A DNA stretch of 43,911 bases from Candidatus Sulfotelmatobacter sp. (GTDB taxonomy: Bacteria; Acidobacteriota; Terriglobia; Terriglobales; Acidobacteriaceae): contig JAICJP010000002.1 of NCBI GenBank assembly GCA_025928375.1, forward strand, positions 1-43,911, written 5' to 3'. Position numbers and translations under genes: made by a program. Shown here in pieces: positions 10,566-28,302 of the stretch (the stretch's first letter is position 1; each line of letters starts with the position of its first letter). The notes below the pieces were generated by a model. The model was given only the letters and a program-made list of their open reading frames with translations, had not been told where the DNA came from and did not search any database.

Positions 10566-10904
10566 CTATAGCGCTGCCACACCGCGCTCCTGATTGCGAA
10601 TGCGAATGGCTTCTTCCACTTTGGTCAGAAATATCTTGCCGTCTCCGATCTTTCCTGTGGCCGCCGACTGCAGAATGGCGGCGACCGCCGCGTCAACCAG
10701 GTTATCGTTCATCACAGATTCTATTTTGATTTTCGGCAGCAAATCCACGGAGTATTCGTGGCCGCGGTACATCTCGGTGTGCCCCTTCTGGCGGCCGTGC
10801 CCCCGCACTTCGGAGATGGTGAGACCGTCGATGCCCAGCTCAGAAAGAACTTCTTTCACCGCCTCCAGTTTCGTAGGCTGAATAATCGCTTCGACCTTCG
10901 TCAT
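10566..10904 (-). CDS. glnK: P-II family nitrogen regulatory protein
   Basis: 'KVEAIIQPTKLEAVKEVLSELGIDGLTISEVRGHGRQKGHTEMYRGHEYSVDLLPKIKIE...GKIGDGKIFL': P-II fold with T-loop Tyr conserved. Confidence 0.95.
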   Translation of the reverse strand: MTKVEAIIQPTKLEAVKEVLSELGIDGLTISEVRGHGRQKGHTEMYRGHEYSVDLLPKIKIESVMNDNLVDAAVAAILQSAATGKIGDGKIFLTKVEEAIRIRNQERGVAAL

Positions 10905-14532: not shown

Positions 14533-15273
14533 TGTTGTCCTGCTTTCTCCCCCGGTGTACCCAACGGATGTCCGAGCGCATCCGCTGTCAGCACGCTGAA
14601 CTTAGCGATGTGCGCTGCCGCAGTCCAACGCATACTTCCGCTATTGCGAATCGAAATTTCTTTTGGAAAACAAAAACTTATAAGAGCGATAAAGGAACTT
14701 TCTGTCCACGGGATCGAGGACGACTCACTTGAAAAGCTCGAATCTTGCGCTGACCCCGCAAATGCCGCACCAGTTGCTTCATTTCGGCTCTACCTCAGCA
14801 GATACGAGAGACCAAATGCAGGCTCGGAACACTACAGTTTCCGGCGCTAGGTTTTCGTTCATCCAATGCGTTTAGTTCCCACCGTAATGGAGGTCATAGA
14901 TTTTTTTCATAGACTCGAACTATCGGCAGAGTCAGGGGGCAGGATATTTTCAGCCGCACTTGCGGGCACCGAAGCAAGCAGGTGAATGGCGGCCACAGAC
15001 AAGGGTTGATATCGACCGAATTGCGCGATTTTCGCACCGCATCGGACGACGAACTCGAGAAGTAGAACTTCAAGGGCAAAAACAACGTGATAATCAGGTT
15101 ACCGCCGGGAAATTCAGGAAGATCGTCTCAAGCGTCTTAACGACGAGAAAGCGAATTCGAGCCTCGGCGCGATGGGCATGCGGCAACGCCTTTTACGTCG
15201 TATGCTTGATGACGCGACAGGGTAATTAACTGGTTGGGGTTCTCCAAACTGGCTACTGGACACGGCAGAGGAC

Positions 15274-16767
15274 GTGCTTATTAAGCGAAAACATCAGCGC
15301 TCCCCTTATCTGGCATTTGATCTTGGAGCCGAGAGCGGGCGAGCGGTGTTGGCCGACTTGCACTCAGGGATTCTTACGACCAGAGAGGTCCACCGCTTCA
15401 GCAATCAGCCGATGGAAACAGGGGGCGCGCTACGTTGGGACGTCGCGCATTTGTGGTTTGAAATTCGCAAAGCGCTGAATTCTGTGGAAGGGGTGAAACT
15501 CGCAGCTATTGGGGTGGATGCGTGGGGCGTGGACTATGCGCTCCTCGATGAGCACGGGCGGCTTTTGGAGAACCCTTACCACTACCGTGATCGCCGCACC
15601 GAGGGCATAATGCAGGAAGTTTTCCGAAAAGTGTCCAGGGAGGAGATCTATCGCGCTACTGGCATTCAGTTTATGCCGATCAATACCTTGTACCAGCTTT
15701 ATGTAGCACATCGAGATACGCCGGCGACCGTAGCAGCGGCAAGACAGTTGGTTACTATCCCTGATCTGTTCAACTATTGGCTTACCGGAAGAGCTGTATG
15801 CGAGTTCACCAACGCAACCACCACTCAGATGGTCGATCCGGTTCGTCGAGTCTGGGCGAAAGATCTCCTGCAGCGTGTCGGCTTGCGGACAGACCTTCCA
15901 TGTCCTATCGTCGAGCCTGGAACTGTCATCGGACCTTTGCTGAAGGGCATTGTTTCCAATTCCCTATTGTCGGGAACTCCCATCATCGCCCCGGCCTGTC
16001 ATGATACAGGGTCTGCCGTAGCCGCCATTGCCGCGCGAGATGGTACCGCCTTCTTGAGTTCGGGAACATGGTCGTTAATCGGAACCGAACTCGATGCGCC
16101 GGTGCTCACTCCCGAAGCGCTAAAGCTTAATTTCACCAATGAAGGCGGTGTGAATGGGACAACCCGCTTGCTCAAAAATGTCATGGGACTCTGGATGCTG
16201 CAAGCTTGCAAAAACTGCTGGACCGATCGAGGCCAGACTGGGAGCTATGCTGAGCTAGTGGAGCTAGCCGATCGGGAACCGGCATTTGTACATGTTGTTG
16301 ATCCTGACCACGAACTCTTCTTGCATCCTGCGGACATGTGCGCCGCTATCGACCGGTTCTGCTCGAAAACCCAGCAGCCAACGCCGTCCAACCCCGGAGC
16401 TTATGTGCGATGTATTCTCGAGAGTCTCGCGATGAAGTACCGGCTAACCCTGCGCAATCTCGAGGAAATCTGCGGGCTGCGCATGGAACAGATCAGGGTG
16501 GTGGGCGGCGGTTCAAAAAATCGACTTCTGAACCAATTCACTGCGAATGCCACGGGGAAGAGGGTACTTGCGGGTCCAGCTGAAGCTACAGCACTGGGCA
16601 ATATCGCGATCCAAATCGTGGCGACTGGCGAGGCATCGTCACTGGGGGAGATGCGTGCCATGGTTGAGCGTTCTTTCCCAACCGAGGCTTTTGAACCTAT
16701 GGACACCGACAAATGGGACCAGCACTTTCAACGGTTCGAACAATACTGTGAGATGACGCATGCATGA
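15274..16767 (+). CDS. rhaB: Rhamnulokinase
   Basis: FGGY kinase: 'YLAFDLGAESGRAVLADL', 'IGVDAWGVDYALLDEHGRLLENPYHYRDRRTEGIMQEVF', 'PACHDTGSAVAAIAARDGTAFLSSGTWSLIGTEL'. GTG start. Confidence 0.92.
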   Translation: MLIKRKHQRSPYLAFDLGAESGRAVLADLHSGILTTREVHRFSNQPMETGGALRWDVAHLWFEIRKALNSVEGVKLAAIGVDAWGVDYALLDEHGRLLENPYHYRDRRTEGIMQEVFRKVSREEIYRATGIQFMPINTLYQLYVAHRDTPATVAAARQLVTIPDLFNYWLTGRAVCEFTNATTTQMVDPVRRVWAKDLLQRVGLRTDLPCPIVEPGTVIGPLLKGIVSNSLLSGTPIIAPACHDTGSAVAAIAARDGTAFLSSGTWSLIGTELDAPVLTPEALKLNFTNEGGVNGTTRLLKNVMGLWMLQACKNCWTDRGQTGSYAELVELADREPAFVHVVDPDHELFLHPADMCAAIDRFCSKTQQPTPSNPGAYVRCILESLAMKYRLTLRNLEEICGLRMEQIRVVGGGSKNRLLNQFTANATGKRVLAGPAEATALGNIAIQIVATGEASSLGEMRAMVERSFPTEAFEPMDTDKWDQHFQRFEQYCEMTHA

Positions 16768-18976
16768 AATCAAGGAAACCGCGTACTTGAAAGACCTGTG
16801 GAATGAAGACCGAGCTCACGAATTGGGGGACAATCAATTGGCCCTCTTGCGCTACCGATCCAATCTGCTCGGAGCAGATCTCCGCATCACGAACTTCGGC
16901 GGAGGCAACACAAGTTCGAAGATCGAACTGCCGGACCCTTTCACCGGACAGCCGACCCGCGTTCTAGCGGTAAAAGGAAGCGGCGGGGATATCGGCTCGA
17001 TTACCGAGTCCGGCTTCGCACTGCTCTACCTCGCTCGTCTGGAACATTTGAAAACGCTATATCGCGGAGAGAAGTACGAGGATGAGATGGTTGGCTACTA
17101 TCCCCTCTCTGCGTTCGGACAGAATCGTGTCGCCGCGTCGATCGACACGCCGTTGCACGCATTCTTGCCATTTTTACACGTGGATCACTTGCATCCGGAC
17201 TGGGCCATCGCCCTTGCCGCGAGTGCAAACGGTAAGCGCAAACTCGGCGAGTTCAACAGAGAATTCGAGCGGAGAATCGTCTGGATTCCCTGGCAGCGCC
17301 CCGGGTTCGAATTGGCGCTGCAGATCGAAAAGGCGGTGAAGGATAACCCGGAGGCGGAGGGGTTGATTCTTGGCGGCCATGGCCTGTTCACCTGGGGGAT
17401 GACGCAGCGCGAGTGTTACCTCAATAGCGTGCGGACGATCGATCAGATGGGTGAATTCGTTCAGACCCATCAGGCAAAGAAAGGAACTTTGTTTGGCGGG
17501 CTTGAGACTGCGCCAGTGGACGATCGCAAAAGAATCGCTGCTGAAATACTTCCCACGCTGAGAGGCGTAGTTTCATCGAATCGGCGCGTCATTGCCCACT
17601 ATACAGATCACGAAGATGCGCTGAGTTTTGCCGGTTCGAAATGGGCGAAGGAGCTGAGCGCACTCGGCACTAGCTGTCCGGACCACTTCCTGCGAACTCG
17701 CGTGTGTCCTTGGTTTGTCCACTGGGACACCGCCAAAGAGGACGTTAACGCGCTCAAAGCGCGAATTTCGAAGGATGTTGCAGGTTACCGCGCGACATAT
17801 AAGAAGTATTACGAAGAATGGGCGACCCCGAATTCACCCAGGCTTCGCGATTCCAATCCGTCTGTTGTAGTTATTCCTGGTCTCGGACTTTTCGGCTTTG
17901 GCAAAAACAAAAAGGAAGCTCGCATCACCACGGAGTTTTTTATCAACGCAATCCATGTCATGGCGGGAGCAAACGCTCTGGAAGATGGTGAGATTGGTCA
18001 TCCCTTGCCCCAGGCGCGTACTGAAGAGCAGTCGAGAGAGTTCACGCAGTTTCACAACTACGTCGCCCTTCCCAGATCCGAAGCATTCCGAATCGAGTAC
18101 TGGGCCTTGGAGGAAGCCAAGCTTCAGCGCATGCTCTCCGAAGCTGAGTTCAGCCGGAAGATTGCCTTGGTTATTGGTGGCGCAAGCGGCATTGGCCGCG
18201 AAGTGGCACTGCTGCTGGGTCGCAGAGGAGCACATGTCGTAGTTGCGGATTTCGATTTGGAGGGGGCGACCAAGGTGTCAGCAGAGGTTGGGACGTTGTC
18301 CTCCGAGGAGTTTGCGGCCGCTACGGCCGTCGATCTCGGTTCGTCGGGATCTCTAGCGGAGGCAGTTCGATTTACTGTTTCTAGATTCGGCGGCGTCGAT
18401 ATTGTTATCAATACGGCCGCCGTCTATCCCGTCGCGGGCGCCGATGGGGAACTTTCAGACGCGCAGTGGTCCAAAGCATTCCTGGTCAATGTGACCGGAA
18501 ACTATCTTTTGGCTCGCCAAACTGACTGGGTTTTCCGAGAACAGACACTGCCGGCGACAATGGTTCTCACTGGTTCCGCCAACGCGATCGTGCCAAAGGT
18601 AGGCAGTGAAGCGTACGACACGAGCAAGGCGGCACTGAACCACCTGATTCGCGAACTTGCCGTGAGGCTGAGCCCAGAGGTGCGTGTAAATGGAATCGCG
18701 CCCGCAACCGTCGTGGCGGGTTCGACAATGTTTCCTCGTGAACGCGTAATTCAGTCCCTGCAGAAATACAAAATTGCCTTTTCTGAATCCGAGTCGGCGG
18801 AAGTCCTCCGAGACAAACTGGCCGATTTTTATGCTCAGCGCACATTAACGAAGCGGCCAATTCTCCCTCAGGACTGTGCTGCAGCAATCGTGTGGCTTGC
18901 GGGAGATCAGAGCGCCAAGACTACAGGGCACGTGATTCCCGTGGACGGGGGCTTGTCTGAGGCCTTCCTGCGGTAA
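16760..18976 (+). CDS. Bifunctional L-rhamnulose-1-phosphate aldolase / short-chain dehydrogenase fusion
   Basis: N-terminal class II aldolase region ('LGADLRITNFGGGNTSSKIELPDPFTGQPTRVLAVKGSGGDIG') fused to an SDR domain ('IALVIGGASGIGREVALLLGRRGAHVVVADFD...YDTSKAALNHLIRELAVRL'). Overlaps rhaB by 8 bp. Confidence 0.92.
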   Translation: MHEIKETAYLKDLWNEDRAHELGDNQLALLRYRSNLLGADLRITNFGGGNTSSKIELPDPFTGQPTRVLAVKGSGGDIGSITESGFALLYLARLEHLKTLYRGEKYEDEMVGYYPLSAFGQNRVAASIDTPLHAFLPFLHVDHLHPDWAIALAASANGKRKLGEFNREFERRIVWIPWQRPGFELALQIEKAVKDNPEAEGLILGGHGLFTWGMTQRECYLNSVRTIDQMGEFVQTHQAKKGTLFGGLETAPVDDRKRIAAEILPTLRGVVSSNRRVIAHYTDHEDALSFAGSKWAKELSALGTSCPDHFLRTRVCPWFVHWDTAKEDVNALKARISKDVAGYRATYKKYYEEWATPNSPRLRDSNPSVVVIPGLGLFGFGKNKKEARITTEFFINAIHVMAGANALEDGEIGHPLPQARTEEQSREFTQFHNYVALPRSEAFRIEYWALEEAKLQRMLSEAEFSRKIALVIGGASGIGREVALLLGRRGAHVVVADFDLEGATKVSAEVGTLSSEEFAAATAVDLGSSGSLAEAVRFTVSRFGGVDIVINTAAVYPVAGADGELSDAQWSKAFLVNVTGNYLLARQTDWVFREQTLPATMVLTGSANAIVPKVGSEAYDTSKAALNHLIRELAVRLSPEVRVNGIAPATVVAGSTMFPRERVIQSLQKYKIAFSESESAEVLRDKLADFYAQRTLTKRPILPQDCAAAIVWLAGDQSAKTTGHVIPVDGGLSEAFLR

Positions 18977-18987
18977 GGAGAAAATCA

Positions 18988-19305
18988 ATGCAGCGCATCT
19001 GCTTTGTCTTGCAGGTTAAGCCGGAGCGACTGGAAGAATACAAGGCACGCCACCGCAGCGTATGGCCGGAGATGCTGGCGGCGTTGGGTGAGACCGGGTG
19101 GAACAACTATTCGCTGTTTTTACGCGAGGACGGTCTCCTGGTCGGATATCTGGAAACCGAAGATTTCGCACGAGCGCGCTCGGCCATGGCACAACGTCAG
19201 GTCAATGAGCGATGGCAACGAGAGATGGGCGACTTCTTTGTTCAGCCAGACGGAGTATTGCCGGATCGGGCGATGCAACCGCTGCAAGAAGTTTTCCACT
19301 TATAG
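18988..19305 (+). CDS. rhaM: L-rhamnose mutarotase
   Basis: 'RICFVLQVKPERLEEYKARHRSVWPEMLAALGETGWNNYSLFLREDGLLVGYLETEDF', characteristic RhaM sequence. Confidence 0.95.
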   Translation: MQRICFVLQVKPERLEEYKARHRSVWPEMLAALGETGWNNYSLFLREDGLLVGYLETEDFARARSAMAQRQVNERWQREMGDFFVQPDGVLPDRAMQPLQEVFHL

Positions 19306-19323
19306 CTGACACTCGGGGGACGA

Positions 19324-20490
19324 ATGAATCCTAACCCGGCTTTGGGGGTGTTCTTTCACTGGTTGGGCGGTCTTGCGTCCGCTAGCTTCTACGTCCCTTA
19401 TCGGGGAGTCAAGAACTGGGCGTGGGAAACCTATTGGCTGGTTGGCGGATTTTTCAGTTGGATCATCGCGCCATGGCTGTTGGCATTGACTATGACTCGC
19501 GACCTCAGTCAGGTGCTACAACAGGCGCCCCGCAGCGCGATCCTTTGGGCCTACTTCTTTGGGGTGCTCTGGGGACTCGGAGGTCTAACGTTCGGGTTGA
19601 CCATGCGCTACCTCGGCATGTCGCTAGGCATGGCGGTCGCGCTGGGATACACGGCGGCGTTTGGCACATTGATGCCTCCGATCTTCCGCGGGGAGTTTGG
19701 CAGCCAAGTTCTTAGAACACGTTCCGGACTGGTCATTCTGGGCGGGATTGCCATTTGCCTGTTGGGAATTGCAGTCGCGGGTGCGGCTGGGGTTTCGAAG
19801 GAGCGGGAGCTGTCGGATGAACAGAAAAGAGCATCGATTAAAGAGTTCGACCTGAAGAAAGGATTGTTGGTCGCGACTTTCTCCGGGGTGATGAGTGCTT
19901 GTTTTGCATACGGTCTCGCCGCAGGAGATCCGATCAAAGCTATCACCGTGCAGCACGGAACGGCGGGACTTTGGCAGGGACTTCCGGTTCTGGTGGTGGT
20001 GCTTTTAGGCGGATTTACAACTAATTTCGTATGGTGCGTCATTCTGAACGTCCGAAATCACACCGGTTATCAATACTTTCAATCGGAGATTCGCGGAGAT
20101 GTACCGAGACGGAATGAAGAACACATTCTTGAAGCAGTGACAGATGCACCCGCAGAGGAGATGGCAGTTGCAGTAGCAGTAAAGCGCGAAATGCCAGCAA
20201 GAGCCCCATTGCTTCCCAATTATTTGTTTTCAGCTCTAGCGGGAACGACTTGGTACATGCAGTTTTTCTTTTACACCATGGGCGAAACGCAGATGGGCCG
20301 CTTTAAGTTCTCCAGCTGGACATTGCATATGGCCAGCATCATCATCTTCAGCACCCTGTGGGGTCTTGCGCTGAAAGAATGGAAGGGCGCCGGTGCCAAG
20401 ACAATGCTCCTCGTAGTGCTGAGCCTGCTGATATTGGTCACCTCGACAGTGGTTGTAGGCTACGGAAATTATGTCGGCGGAGCCCACTGA
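19324..20490 (+). CDS. rhaT: L-rhamnose/proton symporter
   Basis: 'GGLASASFYVPYRGVKNWAWETYWLVGGFFSWIIAPWLLAL', 'LWGLGGLTFGLTMRYLGMSLGMAVALGYTAAFGTLMPPIF', typical RhaT multi-pass protein. Confidence 0.93.
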   Translation: MNPNPALGVFFHWLGGLASASFYVPYRGVKNWAWETYWLVGGFFSWIIAPWLLALTMTRDLSQVLQQAPRSAILWAYFFGVLWGLGGLTFGLTMRYLGMSLGMAVALGYTAAFGTLMPPIFRGEFGSQVLRTRSGLVILGGIAICLLGIAVAGAAGVSKERELSDEQKRASIKEFDLKKGLLVATFSGVMSACFAYGLAAGDPIKAITVQHGTAGLWQGLPVLVVVLLGGFTTNFVWCVILNVRNHTGYQYFQSEIRGDVPRRNEEHILEAVTDAPAEEMAVAVAVKREMPARAPLLPNYLFSALAGTTWYMQFFFYTMGETQMGRFKFSSWTLHMASIIIFSTLWGLALKEWKGAGAKTMLLVVLSLLILVTSTVVVGYGNYVGGAH

Positions 20491-20569
20491 AGTTTGTCGT
20501 CGAGATTCTAAAGACCCATGCTTCCAACGAGCACCGCAATCGATGTCCGCGGTTGTCCATCAAGCATCT

Positions 20570-22975
20570 TCAAGGAAGATGCACCTGCTGATGGCCGGCG
20601 TGTAAGACGATGGCCTTTCCTTTCCACACGAAATCCCCTGTCATGTTCGGGGGGAGAGCTATTTCGGCGTCCACTCCAGTGGGACTCGATCGGAAACTAG
20701 CGTCGATGGTTCCTCGTGGAGTTGGTACTGCGGAGACCACGTTACTCAGGTGACCGAGATGAGGCTCGATGGTGACGCTGGAGAATCCCGGTGTCTTTGG
20801 CCGAATTCCGGCGATGATCGTGAGAAAATCAAAATTAGGATGAGCGCTCCAAGCGTGCGCATCAGACCTTGTGGGCTCTGGTTGTTCCGCCCAGGTGGTA
20901 AGTCCCATTGCAACCATGTCCCGCCACGGTTTCAACAGATCCAAATATCGGTCACCGAGACCTGCGTGATCCAGTGCGCGCGCCAAATAGAAGCGGAAGT
21001 AGTAGGTTGCAATCGTCATTTCCGGAACTGAACCGGATGTTGTGAAACCAGGGTCACTGGTCGAAAGAATCTTCGTCAGAACGTCCTTCTGCTTTTCCAC
21101 CGGGATTACGTCTAGCCATACGCCGAGGATATTGGCATGCTGGCTGTAATGCTTCTGGGCAGGAGTATCAGCAATTAAGCCGTACGAATCATTCCAGCAA
21201 AGCTTGCGGATCGCTGCCGCCGCGCGCGACTCAGCTTGACGGTAACGTTGCGCACGAATCCGGTCTCCGAACAGCGACTCCAGTTCGGCCGCATAGCGAA
21301 GCGCTTCAATATACTGCAAAGTGATGGGGGAGGACCCTCCGTTGACGTCCTGAGGAGGCATGCCGAAGGCAAAATCTTTTCCCCAATCGACGAATGGCCA
21401 CCACGGTACCTTTCCCAGAAGCCCATCTGGTCTTTGCTTATCGAGAAACCAGTCCATGACGGTTCTGGTGCCGGCAATTTGTTCTTTTACGAATTCATCG
21501 TCTCCGCGATACATCCAGAAATCGTGCAGCATTCCGATCCACAAGAGGGAGAATGTTGGAATCATCTGGGTCACCGAGGACGGATAGCGGCTACGCGTAA
21601 GGCCGTCGGGAACTCGGGAATCGTTAAAGGCCTGAATGGCTTGGCGGGCAAGGCGATCATCTTGGGCAACGACGTACGAGATCAAGGCCTGAATGCGTGT
21701 GTCCCCGATGTACTGCATCCTCTCGTAGTAGGGCGTGTCCATGTAGGTATCGTGCGCATCGAGGCGAGCGGTCCTCCAGCCAATTTCCCAAATCGGTGAC
21801 AGAGAGGGGTCATCCGAGGAGAAACGCGCTCGCTCTTCGAATGGAAAGGCTGTAAACCAACAACGAAGATTATCAACATGGAGCGGTTGATCCGCTGTGC
21901 TGAAGTCAAGCTGCAAGTATCGCCATGTACGCCAGACTAGGGGCATGAAGCGGCGTTCTTGGGCTCCATCGGGCAAGAACTCGTCGAAGATACCCACTAT
22001 CTTTTTGTCGGCGATTTCGTTTCGATTACCCTTCTGTCCCCGGCTATCAAAGAGAGCCTCGGCATAGGTGACACGGATAGTGCTCTGAGCGCCACCGGTC
22101 ACCGTCAACTCTGGATATGCGGTGATCAGATGAGCCTGGTCCAGCAGAAGAGTGACCTTTGCGTGAGCTGGTATTTCGAGGGGCGAGCCGGGAAAGCCCG
22201 CAGGCAACTGGATTCCAATCGTACGTACCACTCGTCCCGCGGGTGTTGCTTCCAGCTGCATTGGGGGCAGCGGGTCGGGCACCAGTTGCCAGTTGTTGTT
22301 CTGCAGCACCGCGCCTCGTAGGGACGCAAAACCCATGGCCACTGGCTTTTGCCATTGGCCGTGGGAAGATGCCACATTGTTCCACGACCAATCGAAGAGC
22401 GATGCATCTATGTGCTCGGCCGGCTCTGCAACGTAATATGACTTCTCGATATCCGGAGGGGTCGGCAAGGTCTGTATGCCTTTTTCCTCTTCGACCTCCC
22501 AGCTGTTGTCCGTATTAACAATCTCTTCGCTCGAGGTATCGCCTTGGAGTGCAAATCCCGTCTTATCTGTGATCTGAGCCAGCGGTACAACACCAAAGTT
22601 CCATACCGTGGCAGAGATCTCGTTTTTCCCGGCATGCAGGAATTTCGCAAGGTCGTAAGTTTCATATCTCCAATGAGCGAGATCGCTTCGCGCCGGCCCT
22701 CGCCCTATCTCCTGCTGGTTTATGAAAAGCACAAACTGCGCGTCAGCGCTGACATGAACTACGAAGTGCTCCGGCGACTGCGGAATGTCGAACAATTTGC
22801 GGAAATGCAGAACAACGCTATCTCTCAGGGGTGCGCTGGGCGAAGTTATCCATTGTGCTTTCCACAATCCACGCAGAGCCTCAGGCGGAAGCTGGGCTGA
22901 CGCTCTGATCTCCATAGCAAACAGGAGAGCGATCGATGTAATCGCGAAGAACTTGATTTTCATAGGTGAGGGCAT
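20570..22975 (-). CDS. Secreted alpha-L-rhamnosidase (GH78)
   Basis: Signal peptide; 'LWKAQWITSPSAPLRDSVVLHFRKLFDIPQSPEHFVVHVSADAQFVLFINQQEIGRGPARSDLAHWRYETYDL'; (alpha/alpha)6 part 'DTYMDTPYYERMQYIGDTRIQALISYV' and 'TTWAEQPEPTRSDAHAWSAHPNFDFL'. Start could be ATG 22963. Confidence 0.9.
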   Translation of the reverse strand: MPSPMKIKFFAITSIALLFAMEIRASAQLPPEALRGLWKAQWITSPSAPLRDSVVLHFRKLFDIPQSPEHFVVHVSADAQFVLFINQQEIGRGPARSDLAHWRYETYDLAKFLHAGKNEISATVWNFGVVPLAQITDKTGFALQGDTSSEEIVNTDNSWEVEEEKGIQTLPTPPDIEKSYYVAEPAEHIDASLFDWSWNNVASSHGQWQKPVAMGFASLRGAVLQNNNWQLVPDPLPPMQLEATPAGRVVRTIGIQLPAGFPGSPLEIPAHAKVTLLLDQAHLITAYPELTVTGGAQSTIRVTYAEALFDSRGQKGNRNEIADKKIVGIFDEFLPDGAQERRFMPLVWRTWRYLQLDFSTADQPLHVDNLRCWFTAFPFEERARFSSDDPSLSPIWEIGWRTARLDAHDTYMDTPYYERMQYIGDTRIQALISYVVAQDDRLARQAIQAFNDSRVPDGLTRSRYPSSVTQMIPTFSLLWIGMLHDFWMYRGDDEFVKEQIAGTRTVMDWFLDKQRPDGLLGKVPWWPFVDWGKDFAFGMPPQDVNGGSSPITLQYIEALRYAAELESLFGDRIRAQRYRQAESRAAAAIRKLCWNDSYGLIADTPAQKHYSQHANILGVWLDVIPVEKQKDVLTKILSTSDPGFTTSGSVPEMTIATYYFRFYLARALDHAGLGDRYLDLLKPWRDMVAMGLTTWAEQPEPTRSDAHAWSAHPNFDFLTIIAGIRPKTPGFSSVTIEPHLGHLSNVVSAVPTPRGTIDASFRSSPTGVDAEIALPPNMTGDFVWKGKAIVLHAGHQQVHLP

Positions 22976-23423
22976 TTCACAGAACGCACGCCGCGGATGG
23001 TTTCACCTGGATGAGCCCAATGTCAATCCGTGGGCCACTAGGTTCCGTAACGTCTCGATATGAAATTGATGGGTCACCTGCAATGGAACGAGCACAGGTT
23101 GCTTCGGAAGGACAGCGTCGCAATGGCTAACCGGAAAGGGGTATGGATCGCCTTCCACGTTTGTAGTCTCAGTTGGGACGCAGTGCCTCAAGAGCCGCGT
23201 CGGTGGTAGCTTGTTCCACGTCGGCTTCGACTCTAAACTCAACCAGCAAGATGCAGCCTGCAACCAGGAGAGCTGCCACACGTTCAAGGCAGTTCCAACG
23301 ATGGTGAAATAGTCCAGCCGGTTCCCGCGATGTGCAGCGAATTCACGGCCTATCACAACTTCAAACGTGTTTGCAGATTTCAAGGATGGTTCTGAGGGCG
23401 AGGATAAAGGCTTGAGCGGCAAA

Positions 23424-23473
23424 TGGCGGGGACGACGGGACTCGAACCCGCGGCCTCTGCCGTGACAGGGCAA
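23424..23473 (-). pseudogene. 3' half of a tRNA-Asp(GTC): anticodon arm, variable loop, T-arm, acceptor 3' strand and CCA; 5' half missing
   Basis: Minus strand: TTGCC-CTGTCAC-GGCAG (anticodon GTC), AGGCC, GCGGG-TTCGAGT-CCCGT, CGTCCCC-G-CCA. The 27 nt upstream (TTGATATCAACCAGTTACATCTCGTTG) cannot pair as acceptor or D-arm. Confidence 0.8.
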
Positions 23474-23503
23474 CAACGAGATGTAACTGGTTGATATCAA
23501 ACG

Positions 23504-23582
23504 GTGTCGGCGAACGTCGTTTGGTGCGAAATGATACCGGAGATGATTTCTTATCGTCCCCTTAACGTCCCCGGATCTTTGA
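23504..23582 (+). repeat. Imperfect direct repeat, copy 1
   Basis: GTGTCGGCGAACGTCGTTTGGTGCGAAATGATACCGGAGATGATTTCTTATCGTCCCCTTAACGTCCCCGGATCTTTGA; conserved ends, divergent middle relative to copy 2. Confidence 0.8.
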
Positions 23583-23599
23583 CTCTTTAAATGGAAGCC

Positions 23600-24300
23600 G
23601 GGTCGGCGCTACCCGAGGATGTCGCTCGACGAATCGCAAATGATCGTAAAGTCCGGACGTTTCGTCACGGCGGAATCTTCTCTTAGCCACATGTAACCGA
23701 CATGGCGTGGGACAAGGTGGGTAATACGTACATCAGCGATGGCTATATTAATCCCGCATCGCGAAAGTCAACAAAAACGGCAACTGGATTAAATCGTGGG
23801 GAGAGCCTGGAAACCAACCGGGACAGTTCAGCACTCCTCACAGCCTTGCTGTCGATGCCGAAGACCACGTCTACGTGGCCGACCGCGGCAATGGCCGCAT
23901 CCAGGTCTTGGACGGCGAGGAAGGTTCCTTCGGAAAATCACAATTGATGTGCCATTTGATCCGAACGCCAGCCCTGCCATTGGGAGCAAGCCGGTCTTAC
24001 CCATCAAAGGACCTCAGACAATGGCGCCGGCTCACCATGGGCAATCTGCATCACGCCTCCGCCGAACTAGGTTTTGTTTAGTTCTGATGCATACCGGGGT
24101 CGCATTTATAAGCTAACTCTCGACGGTAAAGTTTTGGGAGTGCTGGGGGAATCCGGCAAACAGCTCAAGCAGTTCGGGCGGATTCACGAAATTGCATGTC
24201 CATCCGACAATGAACTCTACGTGAGCGAGTTGTTGAACTGGCGGTGGCACGAAACTGCAGGGCGGTCGATACACCCTTCGAAGTCGGCGAGACGCGTGGA
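23600..24300 (+). pseudogene. NHL-repeat (peptidyl-alpha-hydroxyglycine alpha-amidating lyase-like) beta-propeller pseudogene with several frameshifts
   Basis: Consistent homology scattered over three frames: 'MAWDKVGNTYISDGYIN', 'VADRGNGRIQVLDGEEG', 'RFLRKITIDVPFDPNASPAIGSKPVLPIKGPQTMAP', 'LFSSDAYRGRIYKLTLDGKVLGVLGESGKQLKQFGRIHEIACPSDNELYVSELLNWR'. Boundaries approximate. Confidence 0.82.
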
Positions 24301-24316
24301 TTCATGTGGGACCACT

Positions 24317-24393
24317 GTGTCGGCGGACGTCGTTTGATGCAAAAGGGGAGCCGCATGTCCCTTCTTATATCCCCTTAACGTCCCCAGATTTGA
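24317..24393 (+). repeat. Imperfect direct repeat, copy 2
   Basis: GTGTCGGCGGACGTCGTTTGATGCAAAAGGGGAGCCGCATGTCCCTTCTTATATCCCCTTAACGTCCCCAGATTTGA. Confidence 0.8.
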
Positions 24394-24611
24394 AGCTGGC
24401 AAATTCTGTGAGCACAAGTGGGTTTCCCAAACTCCAACAGATGAGCCGACGACTTCCGGCTTGCCCGTCATCCGTAACGTCGGTCCAGAATGGAGTTTCG
24501 TCCTTGCCCGGGGAAGCGACCTTTATCGCCCGGCAATCCGAGGCACGGTATCCGCGCTCGCCGACATCAACTTGTGTTGATGAACTACAATCCAGAATTC
24601 GGACAGAGATT

Positions 24612-25435
24612 ATGAGTTCCGGCCAGATCGAAAAAGCGTCTCGCTTTCGTGCGCTTCATGACCGTCCGGGTCCATTTGTGATTCCGAATCCTTGGGACGT
24701 CGCCTCCACCCGCATTCTCGAAGGGATCGGTTTGGAGGCGGTGGCAACTTCAAGTGCTGCCTCAGCCTGTGCCGTGGGTCGACGAGATGGTGAGCTGACT
24801 CGAGATGAGGCGCTTGCGGATGCACGCATGATTGTGGACGCCACGGATTTGCCGGTCTCCGCTGACCTAGAGAGAGGATTCGGTGACGCCCCGGACGCTG
24901 TCGCTGAAACCATTCGGCTCGCGGCAGAAGCGGGCTGGTGGGCTGCACAATCGAAGACACGACAGGAAATCCAGATGAGCCTCTCTACGATTTCAGCCTT
25001 GCAGTAGAAAGAATTGCTGCCGCCGCACAGGCAGCACATGCAGTCGGGTTCCCCTTCATTCTGACTGCGCGAGCGCACAATCTCATGTTCGCGAACCCGA
25101 GCTTGGATGAGACTATCAAGCGTCTTCGGGCCTTTAAACGGGCGGGCGCTGACGTCCTTTTCGCACCTGGTCTTCCCGATCTTGGCGCCGTGCGGGCAGT
25201 TTGCAAGGTCTTATCGAAGCCAGTCAATTTCATGGTGGGCATCAAAGGCAAATCGTTTTCGGTTGTCGAACTAGCGACCGCGGGAGTAACGCGTATCAGC
25301 CTCGCCACTTCGCTTTATCGGGCGGCAATGACCCGGTTCCTTGAAGCTGCATCCGAAGTGAAAAACTCAGGCCAATTTGACTTTGTCGATCGCTGCGCCA
25401 GTACCGCGGAACTGCTGAAACTGATGCGAATCTGA
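24612..25435 (+). pseudogene. Isocitrate lyase/phosphoenolpyruvate mutase (ICL/PEPM) family protein, disrupted by a -1 frameshift near 24935
   Basis: 'RFRALHDRPGPFVIPNPWDVASTRILEGIGLEAVATSSAA...VSADLERGFGDAPDAVAETIRLAAEAG' continues in another frame as 'LVGCTIEDTTGNPDEPLYDFSLAVERIAAAAQAA...FVDRCASTAELLKLM'. One missing C (GGCCTGG to GGCTGG) explains the shift. Confidence 0.88.
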
Positions 25436-27828: not shown

Positions 27829-28302
27829 ATTGCCGCCTTCGTACAAGGATATTTTCCGCATGCCGCATGATATCGCTTTCCACGAATAGACAGCGTGGCA
27901 ACGTACGCGGGAGTCCTCGCCTTTTCCCCCCGTTAAGGACGGTCGGCTGAACCAGAGCGCTTTCCCGAAACCTGGTGGTCCCAGAAGCTGCTATGCAGGG
28001 GTGAATCGATGCGCTGGAACACGAAATCAAAGGGAAGGTTGAGGTGATCACTATTGCGGCAGTCTTCGAAGAGAGTTTCCGATTTGAGAGGTCCCACTTT
28101 CATCATGGCCGACTCCAGATCGGCGCCTACCCTGATCTCGGTGGCTTGCCGGATCTGCATGCTGCAGCGATATTGAAGGTAGAATGACAACCAAGAGCAG
28201 TGAACCGGCAAACGAGACAGCAACTTCGCGGTCGACGAGACTCCATCGACTTACGTTTCTTTATTGACGTGCTACTTCCCCTGCGGACGGTAACAAATCA
28301 CC

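Follow-up and report, generated by a model that had tools for sequence, protein, structure and literature searches.

Two imperfect direct repeats in a 43,911-nucleotide stretch of DNA from the soil acidobacterium Candidatus Sulfotelmatobacter sp. (the window) represent, as a well-supported conclusion, decayed attachment half-sites of genomic islands that target tRNA-Asp, sites of a known kind. Both repeats are present in the same orientation, copy 1 at 23501-23585 and copy 2 at 24314-24394. A repeat search of the window matched 23501-23531 with 24314-24344 (87%) and 23557-23576 with 24370-24389 (95%), both at an offset of 813 bp, and a gapped alignment of the two copies revealed conserved ends and a divergent middle, just as a preliminary description of this region had claimed. 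The local alignment score of the pair was 66, compared to a maximum of 31 among 300 shuffled pairs. When TGTCGGCGRACGTCGTTTG was searched with three or fewer mismatches, the window yielded two matches, corresponding to the two repeats, where 0.06 would be expected. The organism's own genome (484 contigs, 84% complete) contained no convincing copy beyond these two.

Copy 1 is continuous with a remnant of a tRNA-Asp (GTC) gene on the reverse strand (23424-23468), namely its 3' half, a duplicated target, or scar, that ends in the anticodon loop. All 45 bases are identical to the intact tRNA-Asp of many congeners, in which the gene continues with GGCAGCGTTCTAACCAACTGAACTACGTCCCC; ARAGORN called no tRNA in the window, this segment included. 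The preliminary description had copy 1 begin 30 bp from the tRNA fragment. This proved wrong, as comparison with relatives revealed a unit running unbroken from the tRNA 3' half to about 23579. In an alignment that included some 20 copies of other genomes, all from relatives, copy 1 (23462-23579, forward strand) comprises a core, an inverted repeat, a spacer and tandem arm sites, and it is 93% identical to a consensus; across the copies, the unit starts inside the tRNA and continues with GTGACAGGGCAACAACGAGATGTAACTGATTGATATCAAACGGTGTCGGCGGACGTCGTTTGATAC, a variable spacer and CTTATCGTCCCCTTAACGTCCCCAGATT. The core in the anticodon loop, GTGACAG (23462-23468, forward strand), is the putative region of strand exchange: tRNA-Asp scars always diverge from the tRNA at or just past this heptamer, and unit copies at non-tRNA sites start with it. 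An imperfect inverted repeat, TATCAAACG N14 CGTTTG(A/G)T(A/G) (23495-23526, forward strand), forms a conserved block in the alignment and may be bound by an accessory protein, either Xis/RDF or one that bends DNA. Further on, TTATCGTCCCC|TTAACGTCCCC (23551-23572, forward strand) form a direct-repeat pair of 11 bp each, beginning 82 bp past GTGACAG, as at other scars, and their spacing and the integrase-side pairs of relatives mark them as candidate P' arm-type integrase sites. Judged by this layout, copy 1 very probably represents attL, the complete int-distal half-site with the P' arm, left by a tyrosine-integrase element that has tRNA-Asp as its target. In the same alignment, copy 2 (24314-24390, forward strand) corresponds to the unit of copy 1 minus its left ~40 bp, that is, a decayed unit without core or tRNA half. 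Direct reading and the alignment place its arm repeats, TTATATCCCC (one base lost) and TTAACGTCCCC, at 24365-24385 (forward strand).

We then followed the unit through related genomes. With copy 2 as the query against 200 relatives, copies were found in 18 genomes, counting its own; these share its genus, family or class, and one copy came from a different family within the class. When 397 genomes of the order were sampled, the unit was detected in 14, all belonging to the same family as the window, and the named records bearing it are Acidobacteriota, Candidatus Sulfotelmatobacter among them. Copies in relatives lie directly on tRNA-Asp 3' halves and break in the anticodon loop, lending support to the earlier suggestion of integration at a tRNA. 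Most copies retain nearly all of the tRNA half (33-37 of 37 bases) or lose it at the core, apart from two partial cases that keep 11-13 bases (L032 and L033). Integration at secondary sites may account for such a sharp break at the presumed crossover better than gradual erosion would.

Several loci add to this picture. At one of the sites without the tRNA-Asp half, a window-type unit directly follows a tRNA-Ser(CGA) 5' half in two genomes (G037:C371:2720-2911, L095; G012:C1:58138-58300, L093). The site looks orthologous in both, which suggests that some unit copies are old and inherited, and in G037 an intact tRNA-Ser lies 10.6 kb from the unit, with integrase fragments adjoining. Three congeners (L037, L043 and L047) carry just the inverted-repeat block ATCAAACGGTGTCGGCGGACGTCGTTTG, with small changes, after a conserved gene; core and arm repeats are absent there. 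In G022 and G037, the tRNA-Asp 3' half and the unit are matched 11-13 times per genome, counts by which tRNA-Asp looks like a heavily used, stacked integration site. The window's own, incomplete genome yielded no intact tRNA-Asp of the type seen in the scar; of the other tRNA-Asp-like sequences detected there, the nearest (G000:C1:17646-17676, L017) lacks a matching acceptor stem.

The architecture of the arm repeats extends to scars of other sequence. In phage lambda attP, arm-type sites lie outside the core as direct repeats in tandem, spaced by roughly one turn of the helix; the arm repeats described here have a like layout and unrelated sequence. Blind scoring of scars for 11-mers repeated at 10-12 bp with at least 9 of 11 matches detected tandem repeats in 14 of 19 tRNA-Asp scars, compared to 7% of random 200-bp stretches; the remaining five showed no clear tandem repeat. 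The binomial value of this enrichment, 1e-12, ignores relatedness and overstates the evidence, as the scars are partly related. In 13 of the 14 positive scars, the repeats start 76-85 bp from the core, and they fall into about seven sequence types. Pairs found in the same place at other scars include ATCGGACCC/AAATCGGACCC, CTTATCGAACCC/TTAACGAACC, TGTGGATCGGG/TGTGGATCAGG, TGTGTACCACGA twice and TGGCCCATGAA/TGGACCAAGAA. At one locus (L094, G184:C88, about 10788-10870), two arm-type pairs, TTATTGAACCC TTATTGCGCCC followed by TTATCGTCCCC TTATCGTCCCG, occur within ~60 bp, with AGATT(C/T)TG after each pair.

Relatives carry integrase-family reading frames that stop no more than ~140 bp from tRNA-Asp or run into it (G014:C9, G022:C87, G022:C81, G041:C190, G004:C137, G011:C10 and G004:C20), the one at G014:C9 carrying a Phage_integrase domain (PF00589, 8.5e-15). 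Repeat pairs of the scar types sit between integrase and tRNA-Asp. The window-type pair on the integrase side is TTATCGTCCCC TAACATCCCC, matching the P' pair of the window with spacings one base apart (10 for P, 11 for P'). CTTATCGTCCCCTAACATCCCC lies between integrase and tRNA at G014:C9, G022:C87, G027:C111 and G034:C299, where the integrase is broken, and also at an integrase relic (G004:C76). When the retrieved loci were searched inexactly with this 25-base arm pattern, all matches were sites of this kind. A complete element of 13.4 kb is present at G027:C111, bounded by an intact tRNA-Asp with an integrase reading frame on one side and by a tRNA half on the other. Its arm pairs, TTACGACACAAAGAACGACACAAA (P) and TTACGTCACAAACCACGTCACAAA (P'), are identical at 20 of 24 positions, whereas the next best site in the 20-kb stretch reaches 15 of 24. 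One motif at both element ends was thus seen in G027:C111, which is of another arm type; the window-type match holds across loci and genomes, and a search of G014, G022, G012, G037, G033, G034, G027 and G004 for one contig bearing the two ends of a window-type element found none. That the repeats might be recombinase arm sites, as originally suggested, gains support from the tandem 11-12 bp repeats at a fixed distance from the core, the matching pairs beside integrases and the element with a pair at both ends. Neither the arm pattern nor the junction of tRNA and unit nor the integrase of G014:C9 had a match among viral contigs, and a plasmid search gave only short matches inside the tRNA part.

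The window itself holds a relic, as it contained no integrase (by integrase profile), no P arm and no rebuilt tRNA; a second tRNA and an intact island were likewise not found there. At G000:C466, no PF00589 match was present among the matches listed. The left flank (15243-23124) is collinear with G031:C733 (86%), but the synteny stops 300 bp short of the scar and the sequence to its right differs, so that an empty site was not seen. The mechanism that we infer would involve a tyrosine integrase exchanging strands in the anticodon loop of tRNA-Asp. Integration would rebuild the tRNA at the integrase end of the element and leave the 45-bp tRNA 3' half, together with the P' arm, at its far end. 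Here, the inverted repeat and the two 11-bp direct repeats adjoin the tRNA half, and the N-terminal domain of the integrase would hold the direct repeats as arm-type sites. Copy 2 would be the corresponding region of a second, related element that has lost its core.

This mechanism is already known, while the family of marks and its integrases do not seem to have been described; the literature collection searched contained nothing on integrases in Sulfotelmatobacter. In Cluster J mycobacteriophages (Omega, BAKA), attP lies 3' of the tyrosine integrase gene, with a 44-bp tRNA core ~100 bp from the int end whose edge falls in the anticodon loop, and a pair of ~10-bp imperfect direct repeats on each side of the core forms putative arm-type sites (PMC3706429). 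The proposed tRNA-Asp element resembles this layout in the position of attP, 3' of int, in a core edge that falls within the anticodon loop and in pairs of direct repeats on each side, but the Cluster J site is in tRNA-Leu, its arm sequences are others and its host belongs to another phylum. Moreover, Cluster J members are phages, whereas no phage was identified for the tRNA-Asp site, of which the window holds a relic only. Partial tRNAs arising from island insertion are well known, as illustrated by PYG1 in the tRNA-Gln of Pyrococcus yayanosii, where a partial and a complete tRNA lie ~20 kb of island apart with direct repeats of ~44 bp (PMC9897764). G027:C111 invites comparison with this arrangement, while the window retains the partial tRNA copy only.

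We considered whether the unit could instead be a small MITE- or REP-like repeat, dispersed between genes and lying near tRNA-Asp by chance. The counter-scenario of the preliminary description, in which the repeat is dispersed and has no relation to tRNAs or integrases, is not what the relatives revealed, yet about half of their copies lack the tRNA half, and three loci (L041, L046 and L036) hold part of the unit only, as such a repeat might. Against it, copies without the tRNA half break at the anticodon-loop core, the own genome holds just two copies, the alignment contains no terminal inverted repeats of the kind expected for a transposon or MITE, and unrelated sequences at other scars show the same architecture at the same spacing. 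We thus regard chance proximity of a dispersed repeat as very unlikely.

Still less probable is a structured RNA or a tRNA/tmRNA-like gene, a reading suggested by complementary heptamers at both ends, where GGGGACG may pair with the tRNA acceptor end CGTCCCC, and by an Rfam tmRNA match (21.2 bits, E 6.5e-06) that lies below the family cut-off. It is the T arm and acceptor that account for this match, and a full tmRNA gene is present elsewhere in the host (180 bits). Furthermore, the repeat folds no better than its shuffles under DNA parameters, and the other pair types (GGACCC, GAACC and GTGGATC) are unable to pair with the acceptor. The folding result also bears on an integron-type cassette boundary (attC), which the layout of two like repeats flanking a gene fragment brings to mind and for which the preliminary description had proposed a search for hairpins. 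No stable hairpin was detected, z-scores being near 0, no integron integrase has been seen so far, and in relatives the repeats belong to tRNA-Asp integration sites; the notion of a cassette-like unit thus went unsupported, and we give attC next to no credence. A protein-coding repeat, considered in several frames, was rejected because stops and indels between the copies break the frames.

With the repeats read as attachment half-sites, their pairing could reflect either successive arrivals or a duplication on the spot. The nearest relative of copy 1 is a copy in G022 (87%) and the nearest known relative of copy 2 a copy in G420 (84%), whereas the two copies are 76% identical to each other. 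Because each copy is closer to copies of other genomes than to its partner, separate arrivals are favoured. The alternative, a variant of the best explanation in which copy 1 was duplicated locally to give copy 2 and no second arrival took place, draws on the distance of 813 bp, the shared orientation and the weak support of the branches that separate the copies; given the closer matches elsewhere, we consider it unlikely. The successive integrations envisaged at the outset are therefore favoured but not proven, the tree of copies being weakly supported, and the order in which the two elements would have arrived is likewise inferred.

If the attachment-site reading holds more broadly, the tRNA-Asp of Terriglobia could be a common docking site of a diverse family of integrases, in which the core and the spacing (~82 bp to P') are kept while at least seven arm-site specificities have arisen: TCGTCCCC, GGACCC, GGACCA, CGAACC, GTGGATC, GTGTACC and CGTCACAAA. 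We advance this proposal tentatively, considering it quite possible. Such a docking site would provide a natural series in which to read the recognition of arm DNA by integrase N-terminal domains, and the means by which islands stacked in a single tRNA escape cross-excision. That so many arm-site types share one core at constant spacing may be a new detail, and the varied motifs offer paired integrase and arm-site data for recognition tests. More immediately, an unexplained repeat pair turns into mapped island ends, and a search rule for Acidobacteriota follows: a tRNA-Asp 3' half ending in GTGACAG, with an 11-12 bp tandem repeat ~82 bp further on. The surrounding sugar-catabolism region is thereby marked as a place of island arrival and decay.

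The sequence between and beyond the repeats contains further gene remnants. The NHL pseudogene reported between the two copies is real: the fragment at 23690-24243 (forward strand) is frameshifted, represents the C-terminal half and shares 88.5% nucleotide identity with codons ~183-368 of an intact 379-codon gene of the own genome (G000:C365). Near that intact gene, a 672-codon reading frame includes a part that is 84% similar to 116 bp of the window (28089-28202), possibly another gene fragment. Finally, a PEP-mutase-like gene at 24610-25435 is split over two frames, the open reading frames 24306-25007 and 24938-25435 matching consecutive halves of PF13714; the split is a frameshift or an assembly error.
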